Shown here one piece after another: positions 29,548 through 49,234 of a stretch of 58,106 bases of DNA. The DNA lies in IMG/VR virus record IMGVR_UViG_3300030329_004093, positions 1 through 58,106 of that record. One strand, 5' to 3'. Every line of letters starts with the position of its first letter. Within the stretch, counting starts at the first letter, position 1. Source of the stretch: a virus. The notes beneath the pieces are model-generated. The model saw only the letters and a list, made by a program, of their open reading frames with translations, was not told the DNA's origin and ran no database searches. A program made the translations under genes and the position numbers.

Positions 29548-29824
29548 ATATTTCCCTTCATTAAGAGAAGGTGATATAAAAACTGCTGTGATGGGAGAGT
29601 CTGGTGAAGACATCATTCTCTCTCCAGCAGCCAGAGATTTAATACCATTTAGTTTTGAATGTAAGAATCAAGAAAGACTAAATATATGGGAATCTCTAAC
29701 TCAAGCCGAAGAAAATTCAAACAATTACACACCAGCTGTAGTATTTAAAAGAAATCGAACTAAAACATATATAACTCTTGAATTAGAAGAGTTTCTTAAA
29801 ATTATAGGAGAGCTAAATGAATAG
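29480..29824 (+). CDS. PD-(D/E)XK-type nuclease
   Basis: 114 residues. An N-terminal helix with GRRLQNFLKEELYKYFP is followed by the catalytic pattern ESGEDI (D44) and FSFECKNQ (E60, K62), then TQAEENSNNYTPAVVFKRN, the usual order of the PD-(D/E)XK core as in Holliday junction resolvase-like phage enzymes. It probably processes branched DNA from recombination or replication. GTG start, overlapping the previous gene; AGAGGT upstream is a modest ribosome site. Confidence 0.7.
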   Translation: MKPSSRKGKGRRLQNFLKEELYKYFPSLREGDIKTAVMGESGEDIILSPAARDLIPFSFECKNQERLNIWESLTQAEENSNNYTPAVVFKRNRTKTYITLELEEFLKIIGELNE

Positions 29825-30002
29825 AGAAAAAAGAATGGCAAAAGAATTTGAAAACAGTATTATTAAATGCGCTATTATTGATTTTTTAATAGAAGAAATA
29901 ATGCTAAAGGGTAGTTATGAAAAGCTTTCTTATTGGGATAAAACTGCTGTATCGAAATTAGTTGGTAAAAAACTTTATTTATTTGGAAGAGTTACTGCTT
30001 AA
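29817..30002 (+). CDS. Last rightward gene, unknown
   Basis: 61 residues: MNREKRMAKEFENSIIKCAI, then DFLIEEIMLKGSYEKLSYWD and VGKKLYLFGRVTA. Its ATG overlaps the nuclease stop (ATGA). Its TAA lies on the palindrome TTAA (29999-30002), which is also the stop of the converging 1199-residue gene. No family recognised. Confidence 0.45.
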   Translation: MNREKRMAKEFENSIIKCAIIDFLIEEIMLKGSYEKLSYWDKTAVSKLVGKKLYLFGRVTA

Positions 30003-33000
30003 TCTTCATCAATCAAACTCTGTAAAGCATCCTTAGATAAACCATGAGTTGTTGCACTTGGGAAAACTGGTCTTGCAATATCCATAAAACTATTAGCTGC
30101 TAACTCACCTCTTTCTAAAGCAATATGGAATATTAATAATAACCAATCCATTGTCCATGTTACTCCATATCCAAATGGTGCATTCATAACAAATTTTCTC
30201 ATAAATCTTGATGTTTCTTCCCACTCATCATCATCGTCATCAAAACCTGCTGCTGCTTGGATAGCAAATACTAAAATACTCGCTAATCCTTGAGCATACA
30301 TTGAAGGTAACCCTCTAATCATACCACCTAAACCTACTGCTCTAGCTGTATTTTTTATAACACTTAACATAGCTAGATTACCTAAAGGACCCCATATTAC
30401 TAAATCCATTAACGCTGCTGTTAAAACTCCAGTTGTCAGAAACTTATACATTTGAGCTACTTCTTTTTGAGCTATATTCATCTTATTATAATTATGTAAA
30501 CTCCAATAAGAATACTTGCCAGGAACTGCTCCTTTTTTAATTATTTTAGTAACTGCTTTGGCCCAAGGAAAGAATCCAGTTTTATGCAAATCAACAAGTC
30601 CCATTTGAGTTATAGCGGCGTTTTTTGTAACTCTCCAATCACGACCATTCTTTTGAAATCCCCAATAATTAAATTTTTGTAACCATTTACCTAAACTTCC
30701 ATAACCTGCAGCTCCCATATCAGTGCTAGATAAACCCATATTTGAATACTTAGATATTTTCCTGCCTATTTCCATAGCTTTAGATAGCTCTTCACCTTCT
30801 AATTCCCACATATGAACGCTACTATCTATATATCCTAATCTTTGAGCTTGTAGTACACCTACTATAAATGATATACTTCTAATCCAAGATTCACCTGCAG
30901 ACATAGTTAAATTAGCTGATTTATATATCTCACCCTTAGCTTTCCACCAAACAGATAATCCCTTATATATATTAGCAGGAGTTTTATATTTCCAATTAAA
31001 CATAGAAGCGAAATGATTAATCTCATATTCCTTAGTTAGTGCATATTCAACCCAAGTATTTAAAATTGCATCTAATTTTTTACTTATAATATTTTGTTTT
31101 CTTATTTTAATATCATCTTTAGCTAATATTTTATTAACTTCTAGATTATAAGCTGGTGAGTTTTTCATTATATCTTTAACAAGAGCTCTAAATTCTAATA
31201 AAGATAGTGTATTAACCATATCTTCTTTAGATACACCTTCTGTAGCTAGTTTAACTTTCTTCATTTGAGCAATTAATGCACTTTTACTCATATTGGAAAA
31301 CATTTCTTTTGTAGCTGGATGATTTAACATAGCAGCATATATCTTCTCAACACTATGATTATCCATATTAAATCCAACTTTATCATTAACAAGAGATTTG
31401 CTAAAGAAATCTTGGAAAGCAGCAACTCCAGATTTAGCTATAAACATAGCAACTTCTTCAGGATGTTGATTCATGTATTCCTGAGCATCTTGAACAGCAT
31501 TAAAATTCCAATCTTGAACTGTTTGCATAATAGCTACTTTATTGATTATAGCTGTGCTCATTCCTCCTAAAAATGTAGCACTAAGTACTTTATTAATTCT
31601 ATTAGATATTCTTTGTATATTATGAACATCCATTCCTAAGGCATTGGCTATTTTTTGGTCAGATATACCTAAAGGACCTTCAACAGTAGGTGAATTAAAT
31701 GGTACTTTATAGTAATTTATTATACCTTTTTGAACAGATTCACTTTTAGTAAGCAATAAAGCTTCTAGCATTTCAGCTGTTAGTTTATTCCTATTAATGG
31801 CAGCAAATGTTTCATTTAAATGTTCATAATAAACAGCTTTATCTACATTAAGATTACGTATATCAAATGCATTAGTAACTCTCTTTAAATGTTTATGATG
31901 CCTAACAAATGGCATTTCCTCGCCTCTTACCATATCTTCTGGGTATATACCATCTTTCATTTCACTTATATTTCTAGCTCTTTTTAACTGGCTTTGTGTG
32001 ATACTTAATTTTTCATTTACATATTCAAGTTCATTTCTAGGAGATTCAAATTTCGCACTAGAATAAGGTAAATTATTTTCTATAACTTTTATTATTTGGT
32101 TTCTTCTTTTTTTCCAGCCTGCTTCTTCTTTCTCTAATCCATCTATATAACTATCCCACATAAGTTTAAAGGTTTGATTGGGATACCTTATTGGAAAGTG
32201 ATTTCTTCTATATTCAGATTCATTTGCTTGATTTCTAAACATTTCAACTTTAGCAATATTGCCAAAAGTTTCTTTAAAAGTATTATATTTTTCCATATAA
32301 GATGTTTTATGCTTATCGTCTAAATATTTTATTCTATCTAATATTTTCTTCCTATCTTTAATTTTCCATTCTTCAAAAAATAAAGTAAAAACCTCACCTT
32401 CACTTAAATCAGGAAAATGTTTTCTTAATGCTGATTTCATTGCATCAACAGATTCTAAAAACTCTTTTCTTGAATGTTTATATAAAGCATCTTCAATTTT
32501 TCTCGCTTCCTTAGTCATACTTAAGAATGATTTTATTTGAGTTTTAGTAAAAGGTATATTAAAAGAACCGTTTCTAAAATCTTTCAAATCTACTGGGTCA
32601 CTAAATGCAAATATAGGCTTTTTAGTTCCTTCATAAAACTCACCTGTTGTACCCCAGTTTTTATTTGCTTTAAATTGGGTACCATCAAATTCAATTTCAC
32701 CTATCATGTATCTTATAAAGAACTCTATCATTTTTTGCTTTTTAGTTAGCATTTCTCCCTTAGGTAGTTTCCATTTTTTTATATTAAGAACCATATCTTC
32801 TAAATCTTTAAAAATATCAGACATACCTTTAAATTCAACTTTAACAGATTTACCTTTTATTCTTTTAGTAACTGTTCTTTTATACATGAAATTACCAATA
32901 TCATTTTCTACAGATTCATAGTATTTATCCATTTGTTGAGAAAACTTAAAATATGCTCCACTTCTTTCTTTTTTACCTAATTCTTTTGGAGTAGTCCATC

Positions 33001-33598
33001 TAACCATAAATTTACCAAAAGCTCCTTTAGCAAATGTATTCTCATCAACAAAATCTTCTTTAGCAGTAGCCCAATTCCATGCTTTTCTATATATAACTTT
33101 CAAGGTTCCTACAGGTTGTACTCTTAAAATTTGTTTTAATTGTTCTTCTTTACTTAATTTATCGAAATCTTTTTTCTCTAAACCACCTTTACCAAATAAA
33201 GATGACTCTATAGATTCACTGCTAGGGGCCCATGGAAGAGCGCTTTTTCCCTTTTTACCAGAAGGCATGTGTCTCCATAACTCTTCTTGTACCATATCTT
33301 TCATTAATGGATTAGCAATAAATAGAGTAGCTATTTTAAATGCAAGTAAATATCTTTCACCTTGAGTACCATATTGTTGGTTAATAAAATCTTCTATCTC
33401 ATTCTCTGGAATAACATCATATAAAAGCTCTTTTATAGCTTCTTCACTAGCGGTTTTAAAATGCTCATCTACTTGCTGAACAAGTTCTTTCATGCCTATT
33501 ACATCAGCTTCTGTTATAATAGCATCTTGTATAGCCTGTTCAATAACATCTAAATCATTATGACCATCTTTTACTATTTGACAATTACTTTTAGCCAC
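29999..33598 (-). CDS. Large internal virion (ejection) protein candidate
   Basis: 1199 residues. Mostly charged helix for the first ~800 residues. The C-terminal quarter has hydrophobic segments (GVLTAALMDLVIWGPLGNLA; GLASILVFAIQAAAGF) followed by the acidic run DDDDDEWEE, and several Trp-rich membrane-like stretches (YWGFQKNGRDWR). Such proteins in podoviruses are carried in the head and ejected to help DNA cross the envelope. It overlaps the 3743-residue gene by eight bases and is probably co-ejected with it. No enzymatic motif found. Confidence 0.55.
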   Translation of the reverse strand: MAKSNCQIVKDGHNDLDVIEQAIQDAIITEADVIGMKELVQQVDEHFKTASEEAIKELLYDVIPENEIEDFINQQYGTQGERYLLAFKIATLFIANPLMKDMVQEELWRHMPSGKKGKSALPWAPSSESIESSLFGKGGLEKKDFDKLSKEEQLKQILRVQPVGTLKVIYRKAWNWATAKEDFVDENTFAKGAFGKFMVRWTTPKELGKKERSGAYFKFSQQMDKYYESVENDIGNFMYKRTVTKRIKGKSVKVEFKGMSDIFKDLEDMVLNIKKWKLPKGEMLTKKQKMIEFFIRYMIGEIEFDGTQFKANKNWGTTGEFYEGTKKPIFAFSDPVDLKDFRNGSFNIPFTKTQIKSFLSMTKEARKIEDALYKHSRKEFLESVDAMKSALRKHFPDLSEGEVFTLFFEEWKIKDRKKILDRIKYLDDKHKTSYMEKYNTFKETFGNIAKVEMFRNQANESEYRRNHFPIRYPNQTFKLMWDSYIDGLEKEEAGWKKRRNQIIKVIENNLPYSSAKFESPRNELEYVNEKLSITQSQLKRARNISEMKDGIYPEDMVRGEEMPFVRHHKHLKRVTNAFDIRNLNVDKAVYYEHLNETFAAINRNKLTAEMLEALLLTKSESVQKGIINYYKVPFNSPTVEGPLGISDQKIANALGMDVHNIQRISNRINKVLSATFLGGMSTAIINKVAIMQTVQDWNFNAVQDAQEYMNQHPEEVAMFIAKSGVAAFQDFFSKSLVNDKVGFNMDNHSVEKIYAAMLNHPATKEMFSNMSKSALIAQMKKVKLATEGVSKEDMVNTLSLLEFRALVKDIMKNSPAYNLEVNKILAKDDIKIRKQNIISKKLDAILNTWVEYALTKEYEINHFASMFNWKYKTPANIYKGLSVWWKAKGEIYKSANLTMSAGESWIRSISFIVGVLQAQRLGYIDSSVHMWELEGEELSKAMEIGRKISKYSNMGLSSTDMGAAGYGSLGKWLQKFNYWGFQKNGRDWRVTKNAAITQMGLVDLHKTGFFPWAKAVTKIIKKGAVPGKYSYWSLHNYNKMNIAQKEVAQMYKFLTTGVLTAALMDLVIWGPLGNLAMLSVIKNTARAVGLGGMIRGLPSMYAQGLASILVFAIQAAAGFDDDDDEWEETSRFMRKFVMNAPFGYGVTWTMDWLLLIFHIALERGELAANSFMDIARPVFPSATTHGLSKDALQSLIDED

Positions 33599-36500
33599 AA
33601 ACTTCCTCTATATGTTTTTCAATCATTAAATCACCCACTCTATTAAATCTTTTTTCCATGTTCCTATTATTAGCAACTTCTTTATTATACAGCTCAGCAA
33701 ATTTACTCAATATTTTAGCATCTAACAATTGCTTTTCTGATTTAGACCTACTAGCTGGAGGTATATGAGTTCTTGTTTTAGTACCATCCCATCCTTCAAG
33801 GAAATGATATGTAGCAGCTACTTGAGCTACCCTTGATAATGCTTTAAAATCTTTATCAAAATTTGTTTTCCAAACTACAATTGGTTCATTTCTTTCCATA
33901 AAAGTAGGACTATCTGCTGATTTATCATTTGCATCTATAATACCTTTAAATCTACCCAACATATTTCTAGCATATAATTCACCTTTATCCCACTCAGATT
34001 TAGCCCAAGCACTCTTTTTACCCTGAACTAATCCTGATTTAGTATCCTCTAAAAATGCATCTCTTAAATATTGCTGCGCTATAGAAGGTAATAGGAAGTA
34101 TTCAACTGCTCTATCATGTGCATTTCTGTGTACATTATAATGCAATTTAATAGGACTACCATCAGAACCTATAATATTATATTTATTTTGCCATATTTCA
34201 TACTCTACATAAGGAGCAATAGCTATCTCTTCTATAGGAGTTAGTATGTTTGATTTAAAAGATACTCTTATATCTGGAGCAATACCTTTTATATAAGACT
34301 CTCTGTCTCTGGTATACTGATAGTAAGTAGAACTCTCATCTATTGTATCACTTAATCTTAACTTACCTTCTTCAAAATCAAATCCACTTCTAACTTTATT
34401 AGGAGTTTTCAAAAATTTCAAGTATGGTTTAAGCTTTTTAAATGCTGTTGCTGAGATAGTTTGACCTGCTTGAGGATGACCTTCTCCATATTTAAATAAT
34501 GAACGAGATAAACCATCATATGTATAGTTCCATTGTTGCAATAACATGTATTTAGCATTATCTACAGCAGCCTGAAGATATATCCTGAGTATTTTAGATA
34601 CCGTAAATGTTGGTATTTTACCATCTATTTTACCTACATTAAATTTAACCTTTTCATCTGGTTGCTTTAATTCAACTCTACCTACACCTGTTACGTTTAT
34701 ATGGTCAATTGTATTGACAAGTAATCCATATATAGATTGTATATTAACTATTTCACCTTGTTTATTATAGGTCATAGCTTCCATTAGCCTAAACCTATCA
34801 TCAGCCTTAGATAAATCTAATTGCCCTAATTTAGAATCAAATTCATTTAAATTAATACCACCTACCTCAAGTTCTTTAAAGAATTCAATAAAAGTATCTT
34901 CTATCTCTGATACAAATTTACCATCTGTATACTCATAAGGTAGCATTTCAAGTGATACCCAATCTCCATCATAATCTCCTTCAAGTCTTGCAAATACATC
35001 ATAAGGACTAAGCTCTATTAATCCACCTCTATTAAATAATCTTTTAATTCTAATTATCATAGCTCCACCAGCATGTGGTATAGGAGACCTAGCCATAAAC
35101 ATATTTACTGGATTTTCTGCAAGCCATTCATTTATTTCAGAAACATCTGTATCCTCAGCAACTTTCAAAGATATATTTTTAGCTGTTGCAAACTTAAGTA
35201 ACACTTGTTCTGCATTAGATTTCGAAAGCGCTGCTTCCCCTCTTTTTAAATCTCCTCTTAAATTAGGAGCTAAGTCAGCTTTAGTTCCTGGTTGTCTTTT
35301 AATCTTTAAGGTAGGAGTCATTTCTTTTGTTTGATATAAAACATTTAACATTGGTTCTAAATGCCATACAAAACCAAGTTTATTTAATTCTACTAGAGTA
35401 TTTCTAAATCCTATTTCATCATTTATATCTATTTTCTCAATTATATCAGATACTCTTTTAGATGCTGATTTAACAGTGGTGTCAGAGAAATCTCTATATA
35501 TACCAGCTATTTGAGCCTTAACATTAGATAGTATGTGATTTTTAAATGCACTTATTACTCTGGAGTCTGTTATGTGATTATACCACTGCATCATATGATT
35601 GCCAGTAACAGCATATTTTTCATCAGCATATTTAGTAAAACCTATCTCTCTTCCACTTACAGTAATACCTTTTTTACTAGTAGCTCCACCATACACCCAC
35701 TTAGCTTCATCTTGTGTTATAATCATATCCATACCTGCTGCTTCACCATCAACGAAGTTACCATTTTCATCTACTCTAGCAAGTAAAGTATCTCCCTCCC
35801 ATATCTCTATGCCCGATTCGGGCTGATAATGTTGGTGTTTAACTGCAACACCTTCCCCATCCCTATTCTTATATATAACAGTTTTAGCTTTAGCTTGTCC
35901 AGGTGTTAATCCATGATGTAATTCAAATGCTTCAAATAGTTGCCTAGCAGTAATACTACCACCATCTCCTATATAAAGATTGTCTACAGTCTCTACTAAT
36001 CTATATCCTTTGTTTGTTTTCTCTCTATATTTAAATACTAATTTTTCTTTATCTGCGATATACATATTAACATCAGTCATAGATGGGCTAATAGTCATAG
36101 GAGTAAAAGGTAGCTTTATTCTTTTACCTACAGTAGCAGCATCCATATCTAAATAATCAGGAAATATACTAGTCATAGCACTATGAACAGCTAATTCCTG
36201 AGCTGAATCAAATCCCATACTTTTATAATAAGCTTTATGATTATCAGTAACATCTACTATTAACAGCTTATCTGAATCACCTCTTGACATAACTATAGTT
36301 TTACTATGCTGAGTATAAAGCTCATCATTTAAAGTAGAAAGCTCATCTGCTGTAAAGAATCCATATCTAGACTTTTTATTCTGAAGAACATCTTTACCGC
36401 TTATAAAGGATATTAATCCACCACGAATACTCGTTAAATGTGTATACTTTTCATTATTATTAAGCTCAAATGGTGTTATTTTATCTGTAGAATTATTCTT

Positions 36501-39500
36501 TCCTCCAAGTTTGCTATCTGGTCCTTTTAATTCTATGCTCATTTCCTTAGCTACAGTACCTGCAAAATTACCTTCTGAATCAGTTATTACATCGTATTTT
36601 GTAATAATAGCATAAAAATTATCTCTAGCATTCATTTTACCACCTTCAGAATTGATAGTTAAACTGCTGAATAATCTATTAAACTTTTTAATTTGTTTTC
36701 TTGTCATACTAGGAGGGTAGCTTGCTCTTTTACCTATAATTTTAGAAACTTCTTTAACCCAAGTATCGAATTTATTCTCTATACTTAAATCTCTCATTAT
36801 ACTATAAGCTAGTTTATTTAATTGTTTAGCTACGTCAAAATCAACATGTACTCCAAACTCATCTCTATATGCAAAATCATTAGAACTTAAAGACCTTTCG
36901 TCACTTTCATTTTTATCTATTAAACCAGCCCAGCCTTCTCTATTTGCTCTCTCTATTTCAGTTAAAAAGCTAGATACTCCCATATCTATTTCTTCCTGAG
37001 GAACTAAAGTTTCTTGGGCTTTTCCAACAGCTGTATCTTTATAAGCTAATGAAGAATGCTTAGAGAACATAGTATCATACCAGAAAGAAAACTTAGAATG
37101 CAATTCAGGTGGTAACATGCTCATCATAGCATGTCTAAAATATTCAGGATGCACATAAAACTTTCTGGCTAATGCTTTATTTGTTTCATTCATCACTATA
37201 TTTAAATCTAACCATGCATTTTTAAATATTCTATTTATCTCTATATTTTTAGACAAATTAGGGTCTTCAATTTTCTGGTATCTTATCTGGTTATTAATTT
37301 TATTACTAAGTTGATTTAAATCTTTAGGAGTAGATGATTCGGCATCATGCTTTTCAATTACTTTCTGCATTCTAAACGTCTGATATGAAAGGACCCCTGG
37401 TATATTAAGGTATGTAATTTTCATAGTCTGACCTTTGCTCCAAGAAGGAGTGAGTATTTCATAATCAATCAAACCTTGTTTCTTCATATCTTTAACTATA
37501 ATATTTAAATCTTTTATAAATGGACCAGTTTTACCTTTTATCATAGGAAGCTCAATAGTCTCACCTGTTTCTTTTGATTCAACTTTCTTTATCTCTCTGT
37601 AATGCTTTAATACTAATTTTTGAGCTTCAGACCCTCTCCATAAAACTGCATTAGTTTTATTATTATGCTGTGGTTCATAATAAGCTTCATATAAATCTTT
37701 ACCAATCTCATCTTTTTGTGCATTACTTAAAAAATCAAATTTATCTACAATATTATTTACTATACTGCTTGCTTTTTCAACTCTAGACATTGTTTCTCCA
37801 CGACCATCTGGAAAACTTGCAGTTGAGAGATGTTCTCTGAATACATTCATCAAATAATTCCAAGCAGATTCATCAGCAGTATTGTAAAAGCTAAATGCTA
37901 AATCATTTCCTTGAATCATAAGATTAACTGCACCTAATCCAATATGTAATGATGGCTTTCCGTTTGCTGCTGAACGTTGTATTGAATTTAATATACGTAT
38001 TTTATTTAAACTTTTCTTTAAAGTGACTAAGTTTTTAGCAGGGCCTAATACGCCTGGAAGAATCTCATCTATCTGACTATCAATATTTTCTTTAGTAGCA
38101 TCTTCAGTTACAATATCTTTCATAATTTCAAGTGATTTATTTCTAAACTCAGTAATAGGTATAACTTGTCTTGTTAAATTACCTATCCTTTTTAAAAGTC
38201 GTTCTTGAAATATCATTCCAATAGAACCTGATAATTGCATTTTTCTTATAGATAAAAATTCATTAAAATCTTTGTCAAATTCATTATTCTCTTTTTCAAT
38301 CTCTTTAAAATGAACTAAGTTTTTAAATCTATTTCTTAAACCAAAAATAAAACCATAAAAACCTCTATCATTATCTCTGAATGTCTCTATTAGCTTTTTC
38401 TTAACAATACCTTTTTTTCCTTTTATAACAACATTCAAGCTATCCTCTAAAAGTATTTGTAATTCATAATTTACCTGATTTAATTTTATCTTAGGTATTT
38501 TAAACATTCGGCTTAATTCAATATCATTAATTTTCATTAAATCATTTTTAGAAGATATTCTATTTTTTAGAACTTGATTGTATTTAAAAATCTTTTCGTT
38601 AAGCCAATCTTCTATAGCAGAATCTTTTAAAGCTCCTTTATTTGACAGGATGAAATCAAAAGCATCAACCTCTTCTATATATCTTATATTTAAAAGATTA
38701 GAATAAAGTTCTTTAGGCGCTCTTCCAGTAACTATTTCATCTAATATTTCTAGAGACATCTTATTCAAGGTATGAGTTAATATTTTACTTGAATTAGGAG
38801 CAAAGTAATCAAACATTATATTACCAGCTTCTCTGTAACCTATATTCGTATTAGCTTGCTCAACAGAAACGAAGGATTTATTCCATATTATATCACTAAG
38901 TTTCTCCCAATTTAAATTTGAATACTCTTTAGTTAATGCATATATATATAATTTTTCAATTTCAGATATTCCAGATGATGATTTCATATACTTCTCTGAT
39001 GACGATGATGAATCAGATAAATATCTTTTTATATTTTCAGGAGAAAAATCTAATTTATCAACAGCATTTCCAAAATGTGATATATTTTTATTTAACCACT
39101 TTGTTTTAATAACAGACATTATCTTAACTTGACCATTCTCGCTATTAACTATATTATTTAAATGTTTAGATATTAAATTAATTGCATCATCAGTCCATGT
39201 AACCTCAAATACATTCAAACTTTGACCTGCAGGCAATCCGTTTAAAAGCTTACCGTACCAACCATATCCTAAAGATTTAACTACTTTTTCTTCTAATACT
39301 TCAATATCTTTTGTGATTAAATCTGTTTCACCAGTTAATCCAGTTTGCTTTTCTTCATTTCTTTTTTTTATATATTTATCTGGATTTTCAACATACTCAT
39401 AAATTTCATCTTTTATTATTTCATCATTAGCAGCTATAACATCAGTCTGATATTCATGAGCAATATCTGTATCTTCTATATCAGGAGGTAATGTCTGAAC

Positions 39501-42500
39501 TCTGTACCAACCAGCTGCATTAACAGCTCTATCCGTAGTCTCTGTATCTCCAAATTTTCCTAAATGTATATTATGACCTATGCCTTGACCACCATGTTTC
39601 TCATAAGTATCATAAGCTTTACCTGCAAAGAAATAAATCTTCTTGCTAGGTAATGGTCTTCCTATTTCTAATTCAATAGGCTCATAAAAGTTGTCTTCAT
39701 CTTCTTGCTCAATGTTTTGAGGGATGGTTAAATTAGAGCTTTCATATAATTCTACTGCTTCTGAAGTAAAAGCACTTTGAACTGTAACGTAATCTTGATG
39801 ATAGCTACTTTCAGCAGCATGTATATTATAATTTTTCCTCATAAATCTTGTATACATGTTAACCCATGCATCAAAAGATAAAGGATTATCATCGTTTACT
39901 ATTTCAGACCACTCTACAGTTCCTAAGCTTTCAATAAACTCATTAAATATTACTTGTTCTTGAGTCTTGATAGGCTTTTTACCTTTAAAAGAAGTTAATA
40001 ATTGAGAATAACTAATCTTAGTATCTTTAGTATTCAATTGCAATTGTTTTATTCTATCTACTACAGCATATTTAAAAGAAAGTTCTATTAATTTATATTG
40101 AACAGCATTGCTAACTTTACTTACCCACCCATCACCAAAAGCTACTGGAGATTGACCAGCTGCTTCGTCAGATGTAGGAGGTATTAAACCAACATCTTCT
40201 AATCTAGTAAATACTAATTGGTCTTGTAAATGATTCAAAGAAGATACTAAAAGCCTATTATCTCCATCTAATAAATCAGATTTTATTTGAGCTTTGTAGT
40301 TTTCTAAATGTTTAGATAGCTTTTTTTCACCCCATAGAGATTTAGGCAAACCTATTTGTTTTAATAATCTATCATGTATTTTCTTAGGAAGTTCTTTTAA
40401 CTGAGCTTGAGCTCTTCTATAAAGTTTTCTTTCTTTTGGTTTTAAGCTGCTTAAATCTTTACCGTATTTTCTTAATTTTTTTATACCATCTATAATCTTA
40501 TCAACTTCATCATTAGCTATATTCATATAAGCTGGAATAACTACTTTTGTATGATAATTATATTCAGCATTACCGTATTCTATAATATCATCTTCAAAGC
40601 TAATATCTGTATTTTCTCCAAATTCTTTTCTTAGTGATTCAAATTCTTTAGTATCCAGTATTAAACCTTGTTTAAGCAATTTATCATATTGAATTGCAGT
40701 AGTTACGCTGGTAGGTTTTAAATCATCTAATATAGTATACCTATTATCGTCAAGCATCATATCAACAACTTTACCTAAAGTCATATTATCTTTAGCAAAA
40801 TCATAGAAATCAACATCAAGATTGTATTTAGAGTTATCTCCGAATAAAAATCTCTTAACTAAATCTAAAAACCTTTTCCATGCATTTATAATACCAGACC
40901 ATTTACTATTTCTTTGCTGATAATCAGATAATTGTTTAGCTTTCTTAGCTGCTTCTCCAAAAGTCTCGGCTAAAACTTCTTCTATAAATCCATCACTACC
41001 CTCTTGAAGTTCAGGATATTCTTTTAAAACCCATGCATATAATTTCTTTCCTTCATCATCTTTAATAATATCTTTATATATATCTAAAACACTACCCTTA
41101 ACCTGTTTATTATTTAGTAATGCTCTAGCAATAACATGCCCTATCTCATGAAAAGGAGTACTCATAGTCATGTACTTAGGGTTTAACCAAATAGTATCTG
41201 TATCTGAATCATATGCACCTCTAAAATTATAGAGACTACTATTTCTTTCATTTTCAGGAACTAATTTAAATTGAATTGTTTTTGAAGTATCTACATCAAG
41301 TGCATCTTGTAATGGAGTTTTTGATATAGTTCTAGAGAATTTTTTATTTAAAATATCAATAGATTGTTGTATAAATACTTCTTTTTCTTCTTCAGCTAGC
41401 TTCTTAATATCTTCTTCAGATAGAACCTTTTGTTTTCGAGACTTTTCAGAAACAGGCAATTCTAGGCCTCTTTTTTTCAACTCAGCCTTAATAGAGGCTT
41501 TGTTCATTTTAGCGGCCATATTGCCCCTTTTTTGGCTTTCTAAAACAGAACCTTTAAAGGATTTCAGTAAATCTTCATCAGAAAGGTCTTCCCAACTAGC
41601 TTTTTCTTTAACCTTTTCTAAATAAAACTTAGAGTCAGTTTCATCACCAACTTCAGGAGTTTTTTGAGCACTTATCTTTTGTTTTACTTTTTTAGTAACC
41701 CTAGGTAATGGTAAACCTCTTTCTTTTAATTCAGTTCTTATAATAGGAATTTCCATATCTACTCCACCCTTAGCTTTTCTTTCAAGATATTCATCTTTAA
41801 GTTCTTGGTCTGAGTATTGTTTATATTTTCCTACATCTACTTCTGTTTTTATATCCTCTCCAACTTCTACAGTTTTTTCATCTAATAAATCTTCTCTTTC
41901 TATAACTGTATCAGGAGATATATCTTCTTCATCTTTTTCAATTAAATCTTCTTTAACAATCTTTTTACCATCAGGATTTACATCCATATCTTCTGCCTGT
42001 TCGCTTTCAGTAGGAACTTCTAATAAATTATCTATTTTACTAAACTCTTCAGCATAAACTTGCTCCCACATATTATCTTTCATAGCAGATAGTAAGTCAG
42101 ATTTTTTAACTCCAGCTCTATTTAAAATTTCAAATGCATTACCTGTTTCCTTTTTAGACTTTTCTAATATTTCTAATATCTTTTCAGGGCTTCTTTTATT
42201 ATCATCTAGATTGTCATAAAAGTCAAGTTCATCTCCATCCTCTAGCATATTAACAAACCCAGCTAATATATTAGCATCTTCATCTACATTCATAGTACCA
42301 TCTTCATTATAAGTAACAGTACTTTTTCTTCCAGCTTTTCTTTCATTAAAATCTGCATTTTTCTCAGCTTGTTTTTCTACGCTATTAATATTTAACTTTT
42401 CTTGTCTTTCAAAATTCCAAGCTTTTTGAGCAGTATCAAATGTAACACTATTAAGTAGATTTCCATTTGCTCCAATAATATCTACAATATATTTCTTACC

Positions 42501-44822
42501 TACTTTTTTTATTTCAGTTTTAGCGCCTATATAATCTTTAAATACTTCTGGCTTATTTTTATCTAAAAACTCAGAAGTAAATTGTCTTTCTAATTGTTTA
42601 ACTCTTTGATAAGATTCTTTAAATGTACTAAATGTTTCTCCAGTATCAAATTCTTCTACAGGTCCTTCAATTTTATTCCCATCTTTATCTAATTTATAAC
42701 TACCATCTTTATTTCTTTTAAATGTAGCTGAAGAATAAAATACATTATATGTATTATCTTCATTCTTTTTAGAGAATACCTTCAAGAATTTATTCTTATT
42801 ATTTAATTTGTTCCAATTATCTAATCTATCTTTAATAGTCCCTGTATATAAAGCAGACGCTCCACCTAAAGCACCACCCATAGAAAGTCCACCCCAAGCA
42901 GTTTCAGCTAAAGTATTCCAATTAAATTCATCTCTAAATCCTTCTTTTTTATATCCACCAGGACCTATAGTAGCGAAGAATATTTGAGAAACATATTGAG
43001 ACATTTCCTCAGCTGCATTACCTCCCATAGATAAAAACATTTTAGTTAGAACATTTGAGTTTGTGGCATCCCATCTTCCTAATTTTCCAACAATAGGTAA
43101 TTTTCTAGTTTCTTTTATAAGGTAATTAATAGAACTTCTATTGGCTCCCTTACGCATTAAATCCTTACCACCAAAACCCCATATTTTACCTATACCATCT
43201 AATAGAGATTTTTCTAACATATATGTAACACCTGTAGAAAACATTAAACTAGTACTAGCTATTTTAAATGCATCAGATGGATTCATTCCTTTTTTCATAA
43301 CATTTTTACCACTTACAATATAATTATCATTTTTATATTGCTCTATCATGCTATCTATTATATAAGGCTCATAACCTTTTTCATATAATTCATCTTTATA
43401 TTCATTTAGTTCTCCATTCATAATATCAAGATTTATAAATTCAGGTGCTGTTTGATAGGTAATTGCTTCTCTAGCCATAGATTCCATTTCCATACTAGTT
43501 AAGTAAGCAGCTCCTGCTCTAGTACTTTTTGTAAGTCCAGTTACAGCAATGGCTTGAAAAGCACTTGTAAGAGCTCCATAAGTACCTGCCCATAATCTTT
43601 TCCATCCAGTACCATCTCCAGCCATTACATCTCTTATAAAATTTTCACTTTTATTATATTCATTCCATTTGTCTAAAGCTTGATAATGAGGGTCATTATG
43701 TAATTTATTTTCTATATTCTCACCTATCTCTTTATAGAGCTTATCCATTTTCTCATTATAAGTTTTATCCTTAATATTTCTTTCCCAATTATGATATGGT
43801 AAAGTATATCTCAAATCATTAGTCATATCTACCCTATCCTTTAAAGGCAAGTGACCGAAATCTGTCTCTGCAATTATTTTAGCATAACCATATTCTGCAG
43901 ATTTCACAACAGCTTCAACTAAACTTGCATCAGGTATAGGTTCTCCATTTTTAAGAGATTCATTGTATTCATATACTTTATTAGCCATAATCAACCAATC
44001 TTCTCCTAACGGATAAAGAGGATGAGATGTATCTGAAAGAATATCATTAAATTTATCGCTATGTAAAATTTGGGCTTGTTCGTTAATATTTGCTAAAGCA
44101 TCTGTAAGATTAAAATCTTTATCTATATTTTTTCTTTTATGCATCATAGAATCAATTTGAGCTTGATTCTTACCTTTCATATTTACTTCATCTGATTCAG
44201 CTTTAAAAGAACCAGTATACTTATCAGGAAAGTAATCAAATAAACTTGTTTGCATTTTATATTTACTATATTCACTATCTTCCCAGAAAAATGCATCCTT
44301 AAAGGTATTTTTAAAGTTATCCCAACTATAAAAAGGGCTTAGTTTTTTTCGTTCTTCATCAGGAAGGTCCCTTAATTGGTCAACTGTTAATCCAGTTTCA
44401 CTATGCTTATATCCTTGCCATTTACTTTCACCTCCAAATAATGTATAAACTCTATCAATAGGTTTAACAAATGGCTTAGTATATTTATCTACCATTCCCC
44501 ATATAGTAGGAGATACGTGAGTTTCTAGAGTAGACCTATCTTCAGAAAAAGGATTTATAACTTGAGGAGCTTTGAATAACATTTCTTTAGGCATTTCAAG
44601 AGCTGTTTTTGTTTGACCTTTAAGAACATCCATACTATATTCAGGTTCATCTAAAACTTCATCCCATCCACCTAAATTATCCATTAATTCTGGTTGATAG
44701 TCTTTAAAGTAATCGATTAATTCTAAATCGGATAATCCTTGATACTCTGGGTTAGGATAATATAGTCTAATTAAGCCAGCTATTTCGGAAAGATTTAAAC
44801 TTTCTTCACGTCCATATGACAT
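33591..44822 (-). CDS. Giant polyvalent ejected protein with zincin and candidate virion RNA polymerase
   Basis: 3743 residues, about 19% of the window. Residues of about 1000-1125 hold two copies of a short repeat (LSDxxLxxxx...IKxELKxRGLxLP). Residues 1225-1229 are HEIGH, with a distal EEVLAETFGEA that could give the third zinc ligand, as in polyvalent-protein metallopeptidases. Residues 3243-3250 MARSPIPH, then IELSP and 3283-3287 DYDGD, mirror the RAPTLH...LHP...DFDGD layout of RNA polymerase beta-prime and the DxDGD of single-chain two-barrel polymerases (YonO, QDE-1, crAss-like virion enzyme). AVDNAK at 3419-3424 may mark the bridge-helix region. Likely packaged, ejected and active in early transcription (inference). 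Confidence 0.75.
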   Translation of the reverse strand: MSYGREESLNLSEIAGLIRLYYPNPEYQGLSDLELIDYFKDYQPELMDNLGGWDEVLDEPEYSMDVLKGQTKTALEMPKEMLFKAPQVINPFSEDRSTLETHVSPTIWGMVDKYTKPFVKPIDRVYTLFGGESKWQGYKHSETGLTVDQLRDLPDEERKKLSPFYSWDNFKNTFKDAFFWEDSEYSKYKMQTSLFDYFPDKYTGSFKAESDEVNMKGKNQAQIDSMMHKRKNIDKDFNLTDALANINEQAQILHSDKFNDILSDTSHPLYPLGEDWLIMANKVYEYNESLKNGEPIPDASLVEAVVKSAEYGYAKIIAETDFGHLPLKDRVDMTNDLRYTLPYHNWERNIKDKTYNEKMDKLYKEIGENIENKLHNDPHYQALDKWNEYNKSENFIRDVMAGDGTGWKRLWAGTYGALTSAFQAIAVTGLTKSTRAGAAYLTSMEMESMAREAITYQTAPEFINLDIMNGELNEYKDELYEKGYEPYIIDSMIEQYKNDNYIVSGKNVMKKGMNPSDAFKIASTSLMFSTGVTYMLEKSLLDGIGKIWGFGGKDLMRKGANRSSINYLIKETRKLPIVGKLGRWDATNSNVLTKMFLSMGGNAAEEMSQYVSQIFFATIGPGGYKKEGFRDEFNWNTLAETAWGGLSMGGALGGASALYTGTIKDRLDNWNKLNNKNKFLKVFSKKNEDNTYNVFYSSATFKRNKDGSYKLDKDGNKIEGPVEEFDTGETFSTFKESYQRVKQLERQFTSEFLDKNKPEVFKDYIGAKTEIKKVGKKYIVDIIGANGNLLNSVTFDTAQKAWNFERQEKLNINSVEKQAEKNADFNERKAGRKSTVTYNEDGTMNVDEDANILAGFVNMLEDGDELDFYDNLDDNKRSPEKILEILEKSKKETGNAFEILNRAGVKKSDLLSAMKDNMWEQVYAEEFSKIDNLLEVPTESEQAEDMDVNPDGKKIVKEDLIEKDEEDISPDTVIEREDLLDEKTVEVGEDIKTEVDVGKYKQYSDQELKDEYLERKAKGGVDMEIPIIRTELKERGLPLPRVTKKVKQKISAQKTPEVGDETDSKFYLEKVKEKASWEDLSDEDLLKSFKGSVLESQKRGNMAAKMNKASIKAELKKRGLELPVSEKSRKQKVLSEEDIKKLAEEEKEVFIQQSIDILNKKFSRTISKTPLQDALDVDTSKTIQFKLVPENERNSSLYNFRGAYDSDTDTIWLNPKYMTMSTPFHEIGHVIARALLNNKQVKGSVLDIYKDIIKDDEGKKLYAWVLKEYPELQEGSDGFIEEVLAETFGEAAKKAKQLSDYQQRNSKWSGIINAWKRFLDLVKRFLFGDNSKYNLDVDFYDFAKDNMTLGKVVDMMLDDNRYTILDDLKPTSVTTAIQYDKLLKQGLILDTKEFESLRKEFGENTDISFEDDIIEYGNAEYNYHTKVVIPAYMNIANDEVDKIIDGIKKLRKYGKDLSSLKPKERKLYRRAQAQLKELPKKIHDRLLKQIGLPKSLWGEKKLSKHLENYKAQIKSDLLDGDNRLLVSSLNHLQDQLVFTRLEDVGLIPPTSDEAAGQSPVAFGDGWVSKVSNAVQYKLIELSFKYAVVDRIKQLQLNTKDTKISYSQLLTSFKGKKPIKTQEQVIFNEFIESLGTVEWSEIVNDDNPLSFDAWVNMYTRFMRKNYNIHAAESSYHQDYVTVQSAFTSEAVELYESSNLTIPQNIEQEDEDNFYEPIELEIGRPLPSKKIYFFAGKAYDTYEKHGGQGIGHNIHLGKFGDTETTDRAVNAAGWYRVQTLPPDIEDTDIAHEYQTDVIAANDEIIKDEIYEYVENPDKYIKKRNEEKQTGLTGETDLITKDIEVLEEKVVKSLGYGWYGKLLNGLPAGQSLNVFEVTWTDDAINLISKHLNNIVNSENGQVKIMSVIKTKWLNKNISHFGNAVDKLDFSPENIKRYLSDSSSSSEKYMKSSSGISEIEKLYIYALTKEYSNLNWEKLSDIIWNKSFVSVEQANTNIGYREAGNIMFDYFAPNSSKILTHTLNKMSLEILDEIVTGRAPKELYSNLLNIRYIEEVDAFDFILSNKGALKDSAIEDWLNEKIFKYNQVLKNRISSKNDLMKINDIELSRMFKIPKIKLNQVNYELQILLEDSLNVVIKGKKGIVKKKLIETFRDNDRGFYGFIFGLRNRFKNLVHFKEIEKENNEFDKDFNEFLSIRKMQLSGSIGMIFQERLLKRIGNLTRQVIPITEFRNKSLEIMKDIVTEDATKENIDSQIDEILPGVLGPAKNLVTLKKSLNKIRILNSIQRSAANGKPSLHIGLGAVNLMIQGNDLAFSFYNTADESAWNYLMNVFREHLSTASFPDGRGETMSRVEKASSIVNNIVDKFDFLSNAQKDEIGKDLYEAYYEPQHNNKTNAVLWRGSEAQKLVLKHYREIKKVESKETGETIELPMIKGKTGPFIKDLNIIVKDMKKQGLIDYEILTPSWSKGQTMKITYLNIPGVLSYQTFRMQKVIEKHDAESSTPKDLNQLSNKINNQIRYQKIEDPNLSKNIEINRIFKNAWLDLNIVMNETNKALARKFYVHPEYFRHAMMSMLPPELHSKFSFWYDTMFSKHSSLAYKDTAVGKAQETLVPQEEIDMGVSSFLTEIERANREGWAGLIDKNESDERSLSSNDFAYRDEFGVHVDFDVAKQLNKLAYSIMRDLSIENKFDTWVKEVSKIIGKRASYPPSMTRKQIKKFNRLFSSLTINSEGGKMNARDNFYAIITKYDVITDSEGNFAGTVAKEMSIELKGPDSKLGGKNNSTDKITPFELNNNEKYTHLTSIRGGLISFISGKDVLQNKKSRYGFFTADELSTLNDELYTQHSKTIVMSRGDSDKLLIVDVTDNHKAYYKSMGFDSAQELAVHSAMTSIFPDYLDMDAATVGKRIKLPFTPMTISPSMTDVNMYIADKEKLVFKYREKTNKGYRLVETVDNLYIGDGGSITARQLFEAFELHHGLTPGQAKAKTVIYKNRDGEGVAVKHQHYQPESGIEIWEGDTLLARVDENGNFVDGEAAGMDMIITQDEAKWVYGGATSKKGITVSGREIGFTKYADEKYAVTGNHMMQWYNHITDSRVISAFKNHILSNVKAQIAGIYRDFSDTTVKSASKRVSDIIEKIDINDEIGFRNTLVELNKLGFVWHLEPMLNVLYQTKEMTPTLKIKRQPGTKADLAPNLRGDLKRGEAALSKSNAEQVLLKFATAKNISLKVAEDTDVSEINEWLAENPVNMFMARSPIPHAGGAMIIRIKRLFNRGGLIELSPYDVFARLEGDYDGDWVSLEMLPYEYTDGKFVSEIEDTFIEFFKELEVGGINLNEFDSKLGQLDLSKADDRFRLMEAMTYNKQGEIVNIQSIYGLLVNTIDHINVTGVGRVELKQPDEKVKFNVGKIDGKIPTFTVSKILRIYLQAAVDNAKYMLLQQWNYTYDGLSRSLFKYGEGHPQAGQTISATAFKKLKPYLKFLKTPNKVRSGFDFEEGKLRLSDTIDESSTYYQYTRDRESYIKGIAPDIRVSFKSNILTPIEEIAIAPYVEYEIWQNKYNIIGSDGSPIKLHYNVHRNAHDRAVEYFLLPSIAQQYLRDAFLEDTKSGLVQGKKSAWAKSEWDKGELYARNMLGRFKGIIDANDKSADSPTFMERNEPIVVWKTNFDKDFKALSRVAQVAATYHFLEGWDGTKTRTHIPPASRSKSEKQLLDAKILSKFAELYNKEVANNRNMEKRFNRVGDLMIEKHIEEVCG

Positions 44823-44823: not shown

Positions 44824-46392
44824 TTACTTACCTGAATTGATTAAATGTATGAGTTCTTTGAATTTCGGGTCTATTTTAGTTGAGTCTGATTGTTGTACAA
44901 GTTTCATTAGTTGTTCCATTAATTCGTTGTTTGATGAAGTTTTACCAGGATTTGCTATTATCATATTTTGATAATCACTTGCTTCATCTGTAGTTATATT
45001 ACCTTGTTTAAGCATACCAGCAACAAACATCATATCTTTTTTTTGTTCTTCACTTAACCAACCACCACTATCTATAGCATTTTCTTGTAAATCTTTAGCA
45101 AATTCTAAATCCCTTTTAAGCATAGCTTTATGAGTAGCATTAAGGCTTGTAGCTGTTAGTGCTGCTTCATCTACATACCATTTTCCAATAGGGTCACCCT
45201 CTTTATTTTTATTTGTATTTTTAATAAGAGCTCCTTCTTTACCTTTTTTTCCTATCCAAAATTCAACAGGGTCTCTATTTACGGAACTATAATCATCGCC
45301 ATACCATTGGTCACTATTTTTTTGCCACTCATTCATTAAGGGTTTATCCCACCAATGGTCAGAGGCATGACTAGTCATAACTTGTATATTTTTACCAAGC
45401 TTATCGTATAAAGCCCATTTTTGTTGTTGATTTTTTTCAAGATTATAGCCCATTTCTTTAAAACTTTGTATTTTAAGGCCAGATATATCGGAATAACCTT
45501 TTTTCCTTACCCTTTCAGCAACAAGATTATAATCACTTGTATTGTAGTTACCAATTCTTTGCTTATATAAATTGTTTTGAGCAGTTTCATCTAATTTTAT
45601 TTCATTAAATTTAGCTATATTAGCATCATCTGTAGGTAGATAAGTTCCTGGGTCAATACCTCTAGCCATTAATTCTTGATTGGTATATTCTATTTTAGAG
45701 CCATATCTTCCTATTTTAGCATCTTTTCCTTGAGGAGTTTTAAATGCAGTAGCCAGATAATTATCTACCCATATTTTTTTACCTTCATTAAGAGGGTCAT
45801 CAACTTCTTTTTTAAATACATTTCTATATTCAGGATTATCAATCATTGCTTCTAAATCCATTATATCTACTACATTCTTAATACCTTGTTCTGTACCAGC
45901 TTTAGCATAATAATTAGGAAGTTTATCTATTTCTCCTGTCATATTATTAAGAACACCCATTATTTCTCTATTCTTTTCAGATGCTTTTCTTACAGTATCA
46001 AAGTAATCATACTTATCATTTAAATCATTAGCTTGATAAAAATAACCATTTTTTAATTCAACATTATAATCTTCCATTAAAGCTTCAGCATCTCTAGTAG
46101 TATGTTTTCCATCAGAAGATATATTATTCTTTAATTCAGTTTCGGTTAATCCATATAAGTTTAATTTATACAAACTTTGATGTATATCTTTTAGTCCTTG
46201 AGTATATTCATTCATTACCAATTGCTGTTCTTGACTATACTCTCTGTCTAAATTTTTACTTAATTGTTGAAGTTCGAAATGATTTTGTTGTTGATTTTCA
46301 GCAGCTTGATACTTTTCCTCTAAATCATCCTGTCTCCAGATGCCTGTAGTTATAGTTTCAATAAGATTTAATGCATTAGTTAAACTAGACAT
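44824..46392 (-). CDS. Virion protein of the ejection module
   Basis: 522 residues, rich in Gln, Asn, Lys and Asp and almost wholly helical (DDLEEKYQAAENQQQNHFEL; YSQEQQLVMNEYTQGLKDIH). The gene ends one base before the giant polymerase-like gene and overlaps the previous gene by eight bases. By analogy with podoviral internal core proteins it may be a DNA-ejection or cargo-packing protein. No family recognised. Confidence 0.45.
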   Translation of the reverse strand: MSSLTNALNLIETITTGIWRQDDLEEKYQAAENQQQNHFELQQLSKNLDREYSQEQQLVMNEYTQGLKDIHQSLYKLNLYGLTETELKNNISSDGKHTTRDAEALMEDYNVELKNGYFYQANDLNDKYDYFDTVRKASEKNREIMGVLNNMTGEIDKLPNYYAKAGTEQGIKNVVDIMDLEAMIDNPEYRNVFKKEVDDPLNEGKKIWVDNYLATAFKTPQGKDAKIGRYGSKIEYTNQELMARGIDPGTYLPTDDANIAKFNEIKLDETAQNNLYKQRIGNYNTSDYNLVAERVRKKGYSDISGLKIQSFKEMGYNLEKNQQQKWALYDKLGKNIQVMTSHASDHWWDKPLMNEWQKNSDQWYGDDYSSVNRDPVEFWIGKKGKEGALIKNTNKNKEGDPIGKWYVDEAALTATSLNATHKAMLKRDLEFAKDLQENAIDSGGWLSEEQKKDMMFVAGMLKQGNITTDEASDYQNMIIANPGKTSSNNELMEQLMKLVQQSDSTKIDPKFKELIHLINSGK

Positions 46393-47866
46393 TATTGCCT
46401 TGTAAATATGACGCTACATCTGAATGTTTTATATTTCCTAACCAATCTTGGAACTGTTTAAACTTATCAATCTCAGTAAGACCTGCTGTAAATGGTGCAT
46501 AAGCTTGAGGGTAAGGGTCGCCAGTTGGCTTAGAACCTCCTGGCTTAATATCTTGTCTATATTCATCATAATACCCTGGCATATATTCATCAGTATCACC
46601 TCCTATAAATATGTCAGACTCACCAAACTTTTTACCTCTATAGCCTATATCACCTGTGCCTGGAGTCTCTGTTCTACCAGCAATATGCTCTCCAAATTTT
46701 TTATGCTCATCATATAAATCACTCATCATATTGTCCATTTGTGTATAAGCTTGACTAGCTCCACTTGTCATACTTTCCAATCCCTCACCAACATCTTCAC
46801 CAGCTTCAGTTAATATTTTTTGTGCATCACCTCTCTCATCTTCAATTCTTGATAATTCTCCTTGATATAAATCTTCTATATCTCTTTTTTCTAAAACAAT
46901 ATCTCTTAGAGTTTTATCTGAAACTGCTTGTTCTTGAAGAACTCTTTCCGCTGCAGGCGCAGAATAAGCCATTCCAGTTCTAGCTATATTAGCTTGTTGT
47001 TGTTCTATGTCACTAGGAAGTCCTCCGATAATTTCTTTTCTAGCTAAAGTTTGAAGATAATCAGCTTTTTCTTTATCCTGCTCTGCTGTAATTTCTTGTT
47101 CATCAAGGTCAGTAAGTGTATCATGATAATCCGTCTCTGCTTGAGCATAGTCATCCATTAAGTTGCCTGCTGTACCTAAATCTGTTTTTAAAATTAATGG
47201 GTCACCGCTTGAACCTGCAAATTGAGATAAACTACCTCCAGCTAAAGTCTCTAGCATTGTACGTACTTGTTGATTGATAGCACTTAAAGGTTCAAATACT
47301 GCCCCTATATCTCCAGCACCTCCAATTGTTTGTGAAATAGGGTCTGATAAAGCTGTTCTTAAATATGGTTTATAATAACCTTCTGCAAATCCTTCTGAAT
47401 ATTTTTGCATTCTCTCTTTCATGTCATCACCCTTAGGATATGTAGCGTCATTTTGGAGAGCATTACCACGATGTTTAGTATCACTTGAATATATTCTAGA
47501 GCCATCTAATTTTGTACTCCAAGGAACTGTAGGTCTACCTGTAACCCATCCTGATTCAGGAGGTGTAGGAAATTCACCAATCTCATGAGGAATATTTTTT
47601 CCTTCTGGACTAAATCCCTGATAACCTCCCAGACCACCAGCATAAGGTATTTGCTTAGGAAAACCAAAATCATAATCTTTAAGTTTAAATGCAGTTCTTC
47701 CAATATCTGTTGCACCACTACCAAAATCATAACTATGAGATTTGCCAGTAAAAAATTCTTTACATTCATCTATAGGTCCGTTATATTCACGAGAATCAGA
47801 AGAAACCTCAACCAATTTTCCTTTATTATCATCCCATTTAAAATTTACTTCTGTATATATCTTCAT
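46385..47866 (-). CDS. Virion-associated protein, unknown
   Basis: 493 residues. The start (MKIYTEVNFKWDDNKGKLVE) is one I associate with structural genes of uncultured aquatic phages. The first ~130 residues are strand-like and Gly/Pro-rich. Residues 230-380 are long helices (QAETDYHDTLTDLDEQEITAE; LYQGELSRIEDERGDAQKIL) predicted as coiled coil, and the tail is Gly/Pro/Tyr-rich. Tail-tip or ejection protein are both possible. Confidence 0.45.
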   Translation of the reverse strand: MKIYTEVNFKWDDNKGKLVEVSSDSREYNGPIDECKEFFTGKSHSYDFGSGATDIGRTAFKLKDYDFGFPKQIPYAGGLGGYQGFSPEGKNIPHEIGEFPTPPESGWVTGRPTVPWSTKLDGSRIYSSDTKHRGNALQNDATYPKGDDMKERMQKYSEGFAEGYYKPYLRTALSDPISQTIGGAGDIGAVFEPLSAINQQVRTMLETLAGGSLSQFAGSSGDPLILKTDLGTAGNLMDDYAQAETDYHDTLTDLDEQEITAEQDKEKADYLQTLARKEIIGGLPSDIEQQQANIARTGMAYSAPAAERVLQEQAVSDKTLRDIVLEKRDIEDLYQGELSRIEDERGDAQKILTEAGEDVGEGLESMTSGASQAYTQMDNMMSDLYDEHKKFGEHIAGRTETPGTGDIGYRGKKFGESDIFIGGDTDEYMPGYYDEYRQDIKPGGSKPTGDPYPQAYAPFTAGLTEIDKFKQFQDWLGNIKHSDVASYLQGNNV

Positions 47867-47880
47867 AAAAATCCTTTCTT

Positions 47881-49167
47881 TTATCCTATCCTTTTAAAAG
47901 GAACGTCTATTTTATTATAATCTACCATTTCATAGCCAGTATTGTGAACTGACGTAGCCCAAGGTACATCCTTAGATAAAACTCCTAAATATCTACCTTC
48001 TAAGCCCTTATAATCAAAACTATAAACAGGTATACCAGATTTAGATTTACCTTTATATTCAATATTTTCTTTTAATCTAACATCACTAAATATTTTACCT
48101 AAAAATGTATGAGGTTTAGCTAAGCCTCCTAATAAATTTAATGCCATCATAGCCCACCCAACAGGAGTCATGCCTTTAAGTAATCCTCCTGGAGCATTTG
48201 CTAAATTATGAAATAAACCTTTTTTTGTAGGATTTAAAGTTTTAGCTAAACCTTTACCCCAATATTTAGGATTTGATTGAAACCCTAATTGTTGAGCGAA
48301 TCCACCTTTCCCTACATTGCCCATCTCCTTAGCATATTTTAATGCTTTAATTGCTGGAAATACTGGTTTTGTATCAGAAGCAACATTAGAAGCATTAGGT
48401 CCAAGTCTACTAGTAGCACCAACTTCACTATATTTAAGAGGAATATCAGTCGATATTGATGCTAAACTATCAGAAACCTTCACACCTTTAGGGTCAAATG
48501 TTTTATATCCTTCAACTAAAGCTTTCTCATAAGCATTTTGTCCTATATCAGCTGTTACTTTATCTGTAACTTTTTTACCCTTAGGTTTAAATATTTTTTT
48601 AAGTCTTTTTCCAAAATTTTTAAAAGGAGTTTTTTTAGGATGTAAACCAGGAAGTAATTCGCTTCTTAAAGACATAGGTTGACCAGTAGACTCTAAATAT
48701 TTATCCATAATTTCTGGAGTCCAATGTGTATGAGCAAATTTAGCCCCTTTTGACTTTTGATTAATCCAAGGCATATAACGTGACATTTGCTTTCTATGTG
48801 CATCTGTTATTGGAGTTAATGCCTCTCCTTTATTCCAACCTAATGTGAGAGCTTCATTTATTTTCATTTGCTCTTCAAATGGTTTAAAAGTTGATTTAAC
48901 TTTACCACCCCACGCACCAGATGGTTTATCATGCATTAATATAGAAGTTGATGCACCTGTGCCTTTATCTCTATCTATTATTAATTTAGGGTCAGCTTCT
49001 AAACGTTTAGCTGCTTGTATAGTGTCTCTTCTTCTATCTTCTGCTATCTCTATTACACTCTTTAATACTTCTAAATTATCACCACTAGTATCGCTTTTAG
49101 GAGTAATAGCTTTTTCAGGGGTTGTATATTTTTGATATCTATAAGGTCTGATAGTTACTAAAGACAC
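47881..49167 (-). CDS. Virion protein with C-terminal S74-type chaperone domain
   Basis: 428 residues. The last ~65 residues (SDVRLKENIEYKGKSKSGIP, YSFDYKG, YLGVLSKDV, VDYNKIDV) are a clear peptidase S74/endosialidase intramolecular chaperone-like domain, with the SDxRLKxNI signature that helps trimeric fibres fold and may then be cut off. The N-terminal part includes KLIIDRDKGTG and Lys-rich segments, with a hydrophobic stretch near VGWAMMALNLLGGLA. The domain usually ends tail fibres; here the body is not fibre-like, so it could serve another tail protein. Preceded by AAGGAGAAT. Confidence 0.65.
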   Translation of the reverse strand: MSLVTIRPYRYQKYTTPEKAITPKSDTSGDNLEVLKSVIEIAEDRRRDTIQAAKRLEADPKLIIDRDKGTGASTSILMHDKPSGAWGGKVKSTFKPFEEQMKINEALTLGWNKGEALTPITDAHRKQMSRYMPWINQKSKGAKFAHTHWTPEIMDKYLESTGQPMSLRSELLPGLHPKKTPFKNFGKRLKKIFKPKGKKVTDKVTADIGQNAYEKALVEGYKTFDPKGVKVSDSLASISTDIPLKYSEVGATSRLGPNASNVASDTKPVFPAIKALKYAKEMGNVGKGGFAQQLGFQSNPKYWGKGLAKTLNPTKKGLFHNLANAPGGLLKGMTPVGWAMMALNLLGGLAKPHTFLGKIFSDVRLKENIEYKGKSKSGIPVYSFDYKGLEGRYLGVLSKDVPWATSVHNTGYEMVDYNKIDVPFKRIG

Positions 49168-49231: not shown

Positions 49232-49234
49232 CAT

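Follow-up and report, generated by a model that had tools for sequence, protein, structure and literature searches.

Phages that package an RNA polymerase can begin transcription without the host enzyme. The use of a packaged two-barrel polymerase is best known from crAss-like phages and has also been described for jumbo phages and P23-45. In the crAss-like Cellulophaga phage phi14:2, gp66 (PDB 6VR4) holds two barrels and a DxDxD motif in a single chain, and its gene, among the last of the late block, is followed by that of a large companion, gp65. The Thermus phage P23-45, which has a very long tail, fuses a two-barrel virion RNA polymerase to the tape measure in gp96, a protein of 5002 aa (PMC10770324). 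The N4 virion RNA polymerase, gp50, is a packaged chain of ∼3500 aa that is ejected with two further proteins (PMC12633501).

We analyzed a 58,106-base viral contig (the window, in its full length) from an uncultivated, probably marine phage, in which a 3743-aa protein carries a predicted polymerase at its C-terminal end. Like gp66, this polymerase would hold both barrels and a DxDxD motif in one chain; gp66 is its best fold match, the two have an xxVDNAK-type element in common, and both genes close a late block with a large companion downstream. However, the two have no significant single-sequence similarity, gp66 reads DFDID where the window reads DYDGD, its polymerase lies inside 2180 aa, and the TerL, portal, and major capsid protein (MCP) families of phi14:2 differ from those of the 58-kb window phage. 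The closest local motif is that of P23-45 gp96 (RNPVMGHGGALLQARV...DFDGD), also in a giant chain; there, the polymerase is N-terminal, whereas in the window it is C-terminal and the gene order looks short-tailed. N4 gp50 resembles the window protein in its size and in having an HExxH motif domain, but it has a T7-like single-subunit fold, whereas the fold matches of the window polymerase are two-barrel enzymes and not a T7-like palm, and its HExxH follows the polymerase instead of preceding it. QDE-1 and YonO likewise carry both barrels and DxDGD in one chain; they are stand-alone enzymes, in contrast to a polymerase inside a giant late phage protein.

The initial annotation had suggested that this locus extends the packaging strategy to another lineage and to an even larger chain. 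The lineage does differ from crAss-like phages, but the strategy was already known outside them (P23-45, N4), and the chain is not a record, given the two-barrel polymerase in the 5002-residue P23-45 protein (PMC10770324). What is new is the different lineage and the domain architecture; the protein is neither the first giant virion-type RNA polymerase outside crAss-like phages nor the longest.

The giant late protein and its relatives

The giant gene is a single unbroken open reading frame with an ATG start at the end of a late minus-strand block. The features discussed here are as follows.

9802-17620, minus strand: packaging and head module with TerS, TerL, portal, and major head protein (PHROGs 51, 38, 156, 1328)
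29999-33598, minus strand: companion protein, 1199 aa, directly downstream of the giant, with one weak hydrophobic segment near the C terminus
33591-44822, minus strand: giant late protein with predicted C-terminal RNA polymerase, 3743 aa; open frames of relatives, 2500-3790 aa
33594-37190, minus strand: putative RNA polymerase module, residues 2545-3743 (the part modeled with AlphaFold2 and compared with Foldseek)
34557-34589, minus strand: LRIYLQAAVDN, residues 3412-3422, with Q3417, A3418, and D3421 invariant; HHalign counterpart of NAFVDNAK in phi14:2 gp66
34938-35120, minus strand: predicted beta-prime-like catalytic barrel core (DPBB-A), residues 3235-3295, with R3245, P3247, E3281, D3283, D3285, and D3287 invariant
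34962-34976, minus strand: DYDGD, residues 3283-3287, predicted Mg-binding triad
35073-35090, minus strand: RSPIPH, residues 3245-3250, with R and P invariant
35628-36125, minus strand: predicted beta-like barrel region (DPBB-B), residues ∼2900-3065, placed by residues invariant in 29 sequences, boundaries approximate
40923-41270, minus strand: zincin-like domain, residues ∼1185-1300, with HEIGH at 1225-1229 and E1282
44824-56227, minus strand: upstream late block of 522-, 493-, 428-, 429-, 146-, and 1758-aa proteins

The motif series RSPIPH...IELSP...DYDGD, which had first drawn attention to the protein, is present as described, with IELSP ending at P3273. An RxP followed after 20-44 residues by DxDGD also arose in 54 cases when the 3743 residues were shuffled 20,000 times. 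By composition alone, the pair is thus uncommon, possible, and moderately improbable, and we therefore built the case on conservation and fold.

Short exact peptides, used as a first search for relatives, gave no match, and a degenerate nucleotide pattern representing the barrel motif picked out seven loci in viral contigs, only one with the motif in frame (a 518-aa frame). Relatives were reached through the terminase, and at least 598 TerL relatives in IMG/VR, a public viral collection, mark the lineage that this locus adds. Searching 30 TerL-bearing contigs for the C-terminal region gave nine matches in open frames of 1500-3790 aa, and a search with the resulting alignment gave 33 loci, some sharing a contig; these are giant frames except where the end of the fetched stretch cuts them. 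The final alignment holds the window and 28 divergent relatives, with 20-50% identity to the window over ∼1100 aa. A tblastn search of INPHARED with the polymerase region and with that of a sister phage gave no match, and no cultured relative was found there.

Only 27 columns of the 29-sequence alignment are invariant: D2953, G2954, K2980, Y2984, K2995, H2996, D3038, E3039, and K3041 in DPBB-B, together with R2901, G2971, G3057, G3061, Q3079, G3179, N3231, L3234, R3245, P3247, E3281, D3283, D3285, D3287, Q3417, A3418, D3421, and S3497. The DxDxD triad and the preceding RxP are thus kept in 29/29 sequences. DPBB-B comprises KRIKLPFTP, YIGDGGS, K2980, K2995-H2996, and DEAK3041, and K2980 and K2995 (also K3041) lie downstream of the invariant D2953-G2954; the lysine set expected of a second barrel is therefore in place. 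The x of DxDGD varies among Y, F, M, N, G, S, Q, and A, and one sub-branch has DxDHD, so the conserved feature in these sequences is the Asp triad rather than “DGD.” Judged from the alignment, this conservation rules out a chance origin of the motifs.

A profile search of further contigs from the TerL set gave weak matches to sister phages. Their giants of 2871-3028 aa have R.P...EGDYDID or EGDYDVD at the equivalent position, DADFDLD occurs in a further giant (3133 aa), and RDYDGD or RDFDGD in two others. Seven sister giants aligned with the window family in HHalign at 97% probability (E 6e-11), and TerL of the two sisters tested is 69-71% identical to that of the window.

Fold and distant homology of the polymerase region

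Single-sequence searches with the giant against Pfam, PHROGs, and the PDB found nothing significant, and a PDB profile search with the 29-sequence alignment found no RNA polymerase match, so a fold comparison was needed. AlphaFold2, run without templates on residues 2545-3743, gave a model with a pLDDT of 82 and a pTM of 0.79. In a Foldseek search of the PDB, the first ten matches were all single-chain two-barrel RNA polymerases. The top match was phi14:2 gp66 (6vr4; E 8.8e-10); QDE-1 entries scored 4.9e-8 to 1.5e-6 and the P23-45 (gp64) and P74-26 polymerases ∼1e-4, and bacterial beta-prime came next (4e-4 and weaker). Global TM-scores of the model against solved single-chain polymerases were low, about 0.2-0.45; in the model, therefore, only the core is common to the known enzymes and the periphery is not. 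The best two matches in BFVD were the unnamed viral proteins A0A516LSI3 (33% identity, TM 0.81) and A0A516LUR1 (28%, TM 0.74), which are clear members of the window polymerase family already in databases; below them came other viral proteins without names and numerous proteins of crAss-like phages.

Profile–profile alignment with 35 crAss-like polymerases scored 40.2, whereas the highest of 60 column-shuffled controls reached 25.8. It was in register at the active site (GYRIPN...SDFDID over RSPIPH...GDYDGD), and the region near LQAAVDN aligned with NAFVDNAK of phi14:2 gp66. The HHalign probability was only 7-9%, low in absolute terms, as is to be expected given that known homologues, the crAss-like polymerases and YonO, scored only 19.1 by the same method. 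The alignment with P23-45 gp96 scored 31.0 (shuffled maximum 21.4 in 40 shuffles) and covered the catalytic motif, with RNPVMGHGGA...DFDGD opposite RSPIPHAGGA...DYDGD. YonO was undetectable from the window family by HHalign. On these profiles, the link to the gp66 family is one of distant homology, not membership.

By predicted fold and active-site residues, residues ∼2545-3743 are a single-chain two-barrel RNA polymerase, which bears out the initial annotation: the top PDB fold matches of the model, two-barrel polymerases, argue for barrels near residue 3285, and both the catalytic residues and the lysines K2980 and K2995 are invariant in the 29 sequences. Fold and active site are supported at the level of prediction and conservation.

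Lineage, genome context, and rival readings

TerL (15016-16581), portal, and MCP of the window match PHROGs 38, 156, and 1328 and those of phi14:2 match 6681, 6547, and 11589, and neither BLAST nor phmmer found a significantly similar pair between the proteins of the two phages. By these tests, therefore, the phage is not crAss-like, in line with the earlier impression of its terminase and portal, and a very deep kinship with crAss-like phages is possible. Nearest cultured TerLs are ∼25-28% identical to that of the window. We considered a distant crAss-like phage on account of the alike gene order (TerL, portal, MCP, phosphoesterase, RNA polymerase, companion) and rejected it, as the marker families differ; phosphoesterase PHROG 221 is the sole PHROG common to the window and phi14:2 among these markers. 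One relative, a 3699-aa frame with the motif LEADGDGD, comes from a contig of 13 kb that was placed in the bin of a Flavobacteriales MAG (TMED123) and hints weakly at a host in the Bacteroidota.

Early-type genes for polynucleotide kinase, Sak4, primase/DnaB, Gam-like, and RusA proteins occupy the plus strand at 18.3-30.0 kb (18305-30002). The minus strand at the other contig end carries a metallophosphoesterase, the 1758-aa protein, several more, the giant, and the companion; the 428-aa protein matches virion structural and DNA ejection PHROGs. Companion homologues stand directly downstream of the polymerase gene in six relatives and measure ∼1000-1200 aa in close relatives. In relatives, the positions of the phosphoesterase (on the TerL strand), TerL, and the companion fit a single late block on a circularly permuted map, and the window may be arranged likewise. 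Neither Pfam nor PHROGs gave a tape measure match in the giant. The window proteins scanned, a set that leaves out some small ORFs, included no T7-like RNA polymerase or sigma factor, and a repeat search for an early promoter motif gave nothing convincing.

We propose, with a probability of roughly 0.78, the following explanation. Residues ∼2545-3743 would make up a two-barrel RNA polymerase that is DNA-dependent and contained in a single chain; the Mg-binding triad D3283/D3285/D3287 would come from one double-psi barrel and the lysines K2980 and K2995 from the other. Synthesized late, the giant would enter the head and be ejected together with the 1199-aa companion and the DNA, and the polymerase would then transcribe the plus-strand early genes, either ahead of the host enzyme or in its place. 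Catalysis, DNA template, packaging, ejection, promoter use, and the early-gene role are modeled on phi14:2, P23-45, and N4 (PMC10770324, PMC7886860, PMC12633501), and gene position together with this analogy suggests packaging in the virion. In close relatives, too, a polymerase is part of a late protein of equally giant size, and for this reason the phage probably starts infection by injecting its own polymerase along with the DNA.

A genuine two-barrel polymerase might instead stay out of the particle and, as with YonO or P23-45 gp64, be made in the infected cell, where it would transcribe genes of the middle or late phase. Two-barrel polymerases with a non-virion function do exist in phages (PMC10770324, PMC5467207), and the location of the giant in the particle is itself a deduction. 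However, the gene lies in a late structural block beside ejection-type genes and not in the early plus-strand operon, and >2500 extra residues are fused to the polymerase, as in packaged enzymes, whereas YonO (840 aa) and gp64 (616 aa) are compact; we regard an unpackaged enzyme as unlikely.

Less probable still is an inactive polymerase fold retained as a structural or DNA-binding ejection protein. The very fast divergence (polymerase ∼31% against TerL 87-89% identity) and the change from DxDGD to DxDHD in one branch would suit such a protein, but all 29 sequences, however divergent, keep the three Asp residues, the arginine of RxP, and the lysines of the second barrel, which points to selection on catalysis. 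We give similarly little credence to a two-barrel enzyme of other activity, that is, an RNA-dependent RNA polymerase, a primase, or a PolD-like DNA polymerase. The fold match ranked second, QDE-1, is an RNA/DNA-dependent RNA polymerase; the best, however, is the DNA-dependent gp66, PolD is absent among the top fold matches listed, the phage encodes its own DnaB/primase-like protein, and an RNA-dependent RNA polymerase would have no obvious use in a dsDNA phage.

The polymerase diverges very fast. In three relatives (G001, G002, and G033), TerL is 87-89% and the phosphoesterase 84-85% identical to the window, but the polymerase region only 30-31% and the companion 27-29%. The polymerase and companion genes thus either evolve exceptionally fast or are exchanged between phages, and since the polymerase diverges at a far higher rate than the remaining genome, an arms race or exchange between phages may be the cause. 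The polymerases of crAss-like phages have likewise been reported to be unusually divergent (PMC7886860). The window polymerase, which sequence searches of Pfam, PHROGs, and the PDB miss because of its divergence, offers fresh sequence diversity for questions of the origin, tail passage, and promoter recognition of such enzymes. We lean toward the broader view that a large uncultivated lineage, whose packaging and head proteins are unrelated to those of Crassvirales, produces and ejects a two-barrel RNA polymerase in a modular giant with an optional DNA-binding or helicase module, a zincin, and a C-terminal polymerase.

Accessory modules and RNA elements

HExxH and a downstream Glu are common to 16 aligned sequences, with H1225, E1226, H1229, and E1282 of the window invariant. 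The model of the zincin-like region has a pLDDT of 81-93 over most of its length and is confident only at about 1180-1300; the best PDB fold matches include HExxH zincins and are weak (E ≥ 0.3). Most close members carry this domain, and HExxH is absent from members of the DxDHD branch and from the sisters examined. HExxH domains beside unrelated polymerases (N4 and the window) may hint at a common need during ejection. HExxH motifs also occur in phi14:2 g065, a crAss-like polymerase-associated protein, and in tail protein g070 (L116, L262). Two relatives (L110:3132-13832 and L108:377-11731) have an FtsK-gamma DNA-binding domain (E 5.5e-25 and 3.3e-20) in the giant, immediately ahead of the HExxH domain, and in another (L112:722-9727), a PIF1/RecD-like helicase (AAA_30, E 3.3e-26) is fused into the giant polymerase protein.

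The early region also holds RNA elements. A GOLLD RNA (Rfam RF02032; 192.7 bits, E 6e-54, full model length) lies at 19166-19586 on the plus strand in a part of the early operon that has no ORFs and is also found in the related phage contigs G031 and G027. A second ORF-free stretch of 1.1 kb follows tRNA-Met at 21068-22166 (plus strand); nothing in Rfam matched it. Over the first ∼250 nt, identity is 81-83% between phages that share only ∼31% in their polymerases, and shorter blocks recur in many relatives in varying order. Folding a consensus of five sequences gives 57 pairs, of which 11 show changes on both sides; the stretch is a candidate new large structured RNA. At ∼21860-22030 (plus strand), where ARAGORN made no call, two tRNA-like stretches can be seen by eye, with matching ends TTAGTTT/AAACTAA and AGCAGGT/ACCTGCT and T-loop-like GGGTGCAAATCC and GGGTTCGATTCC.
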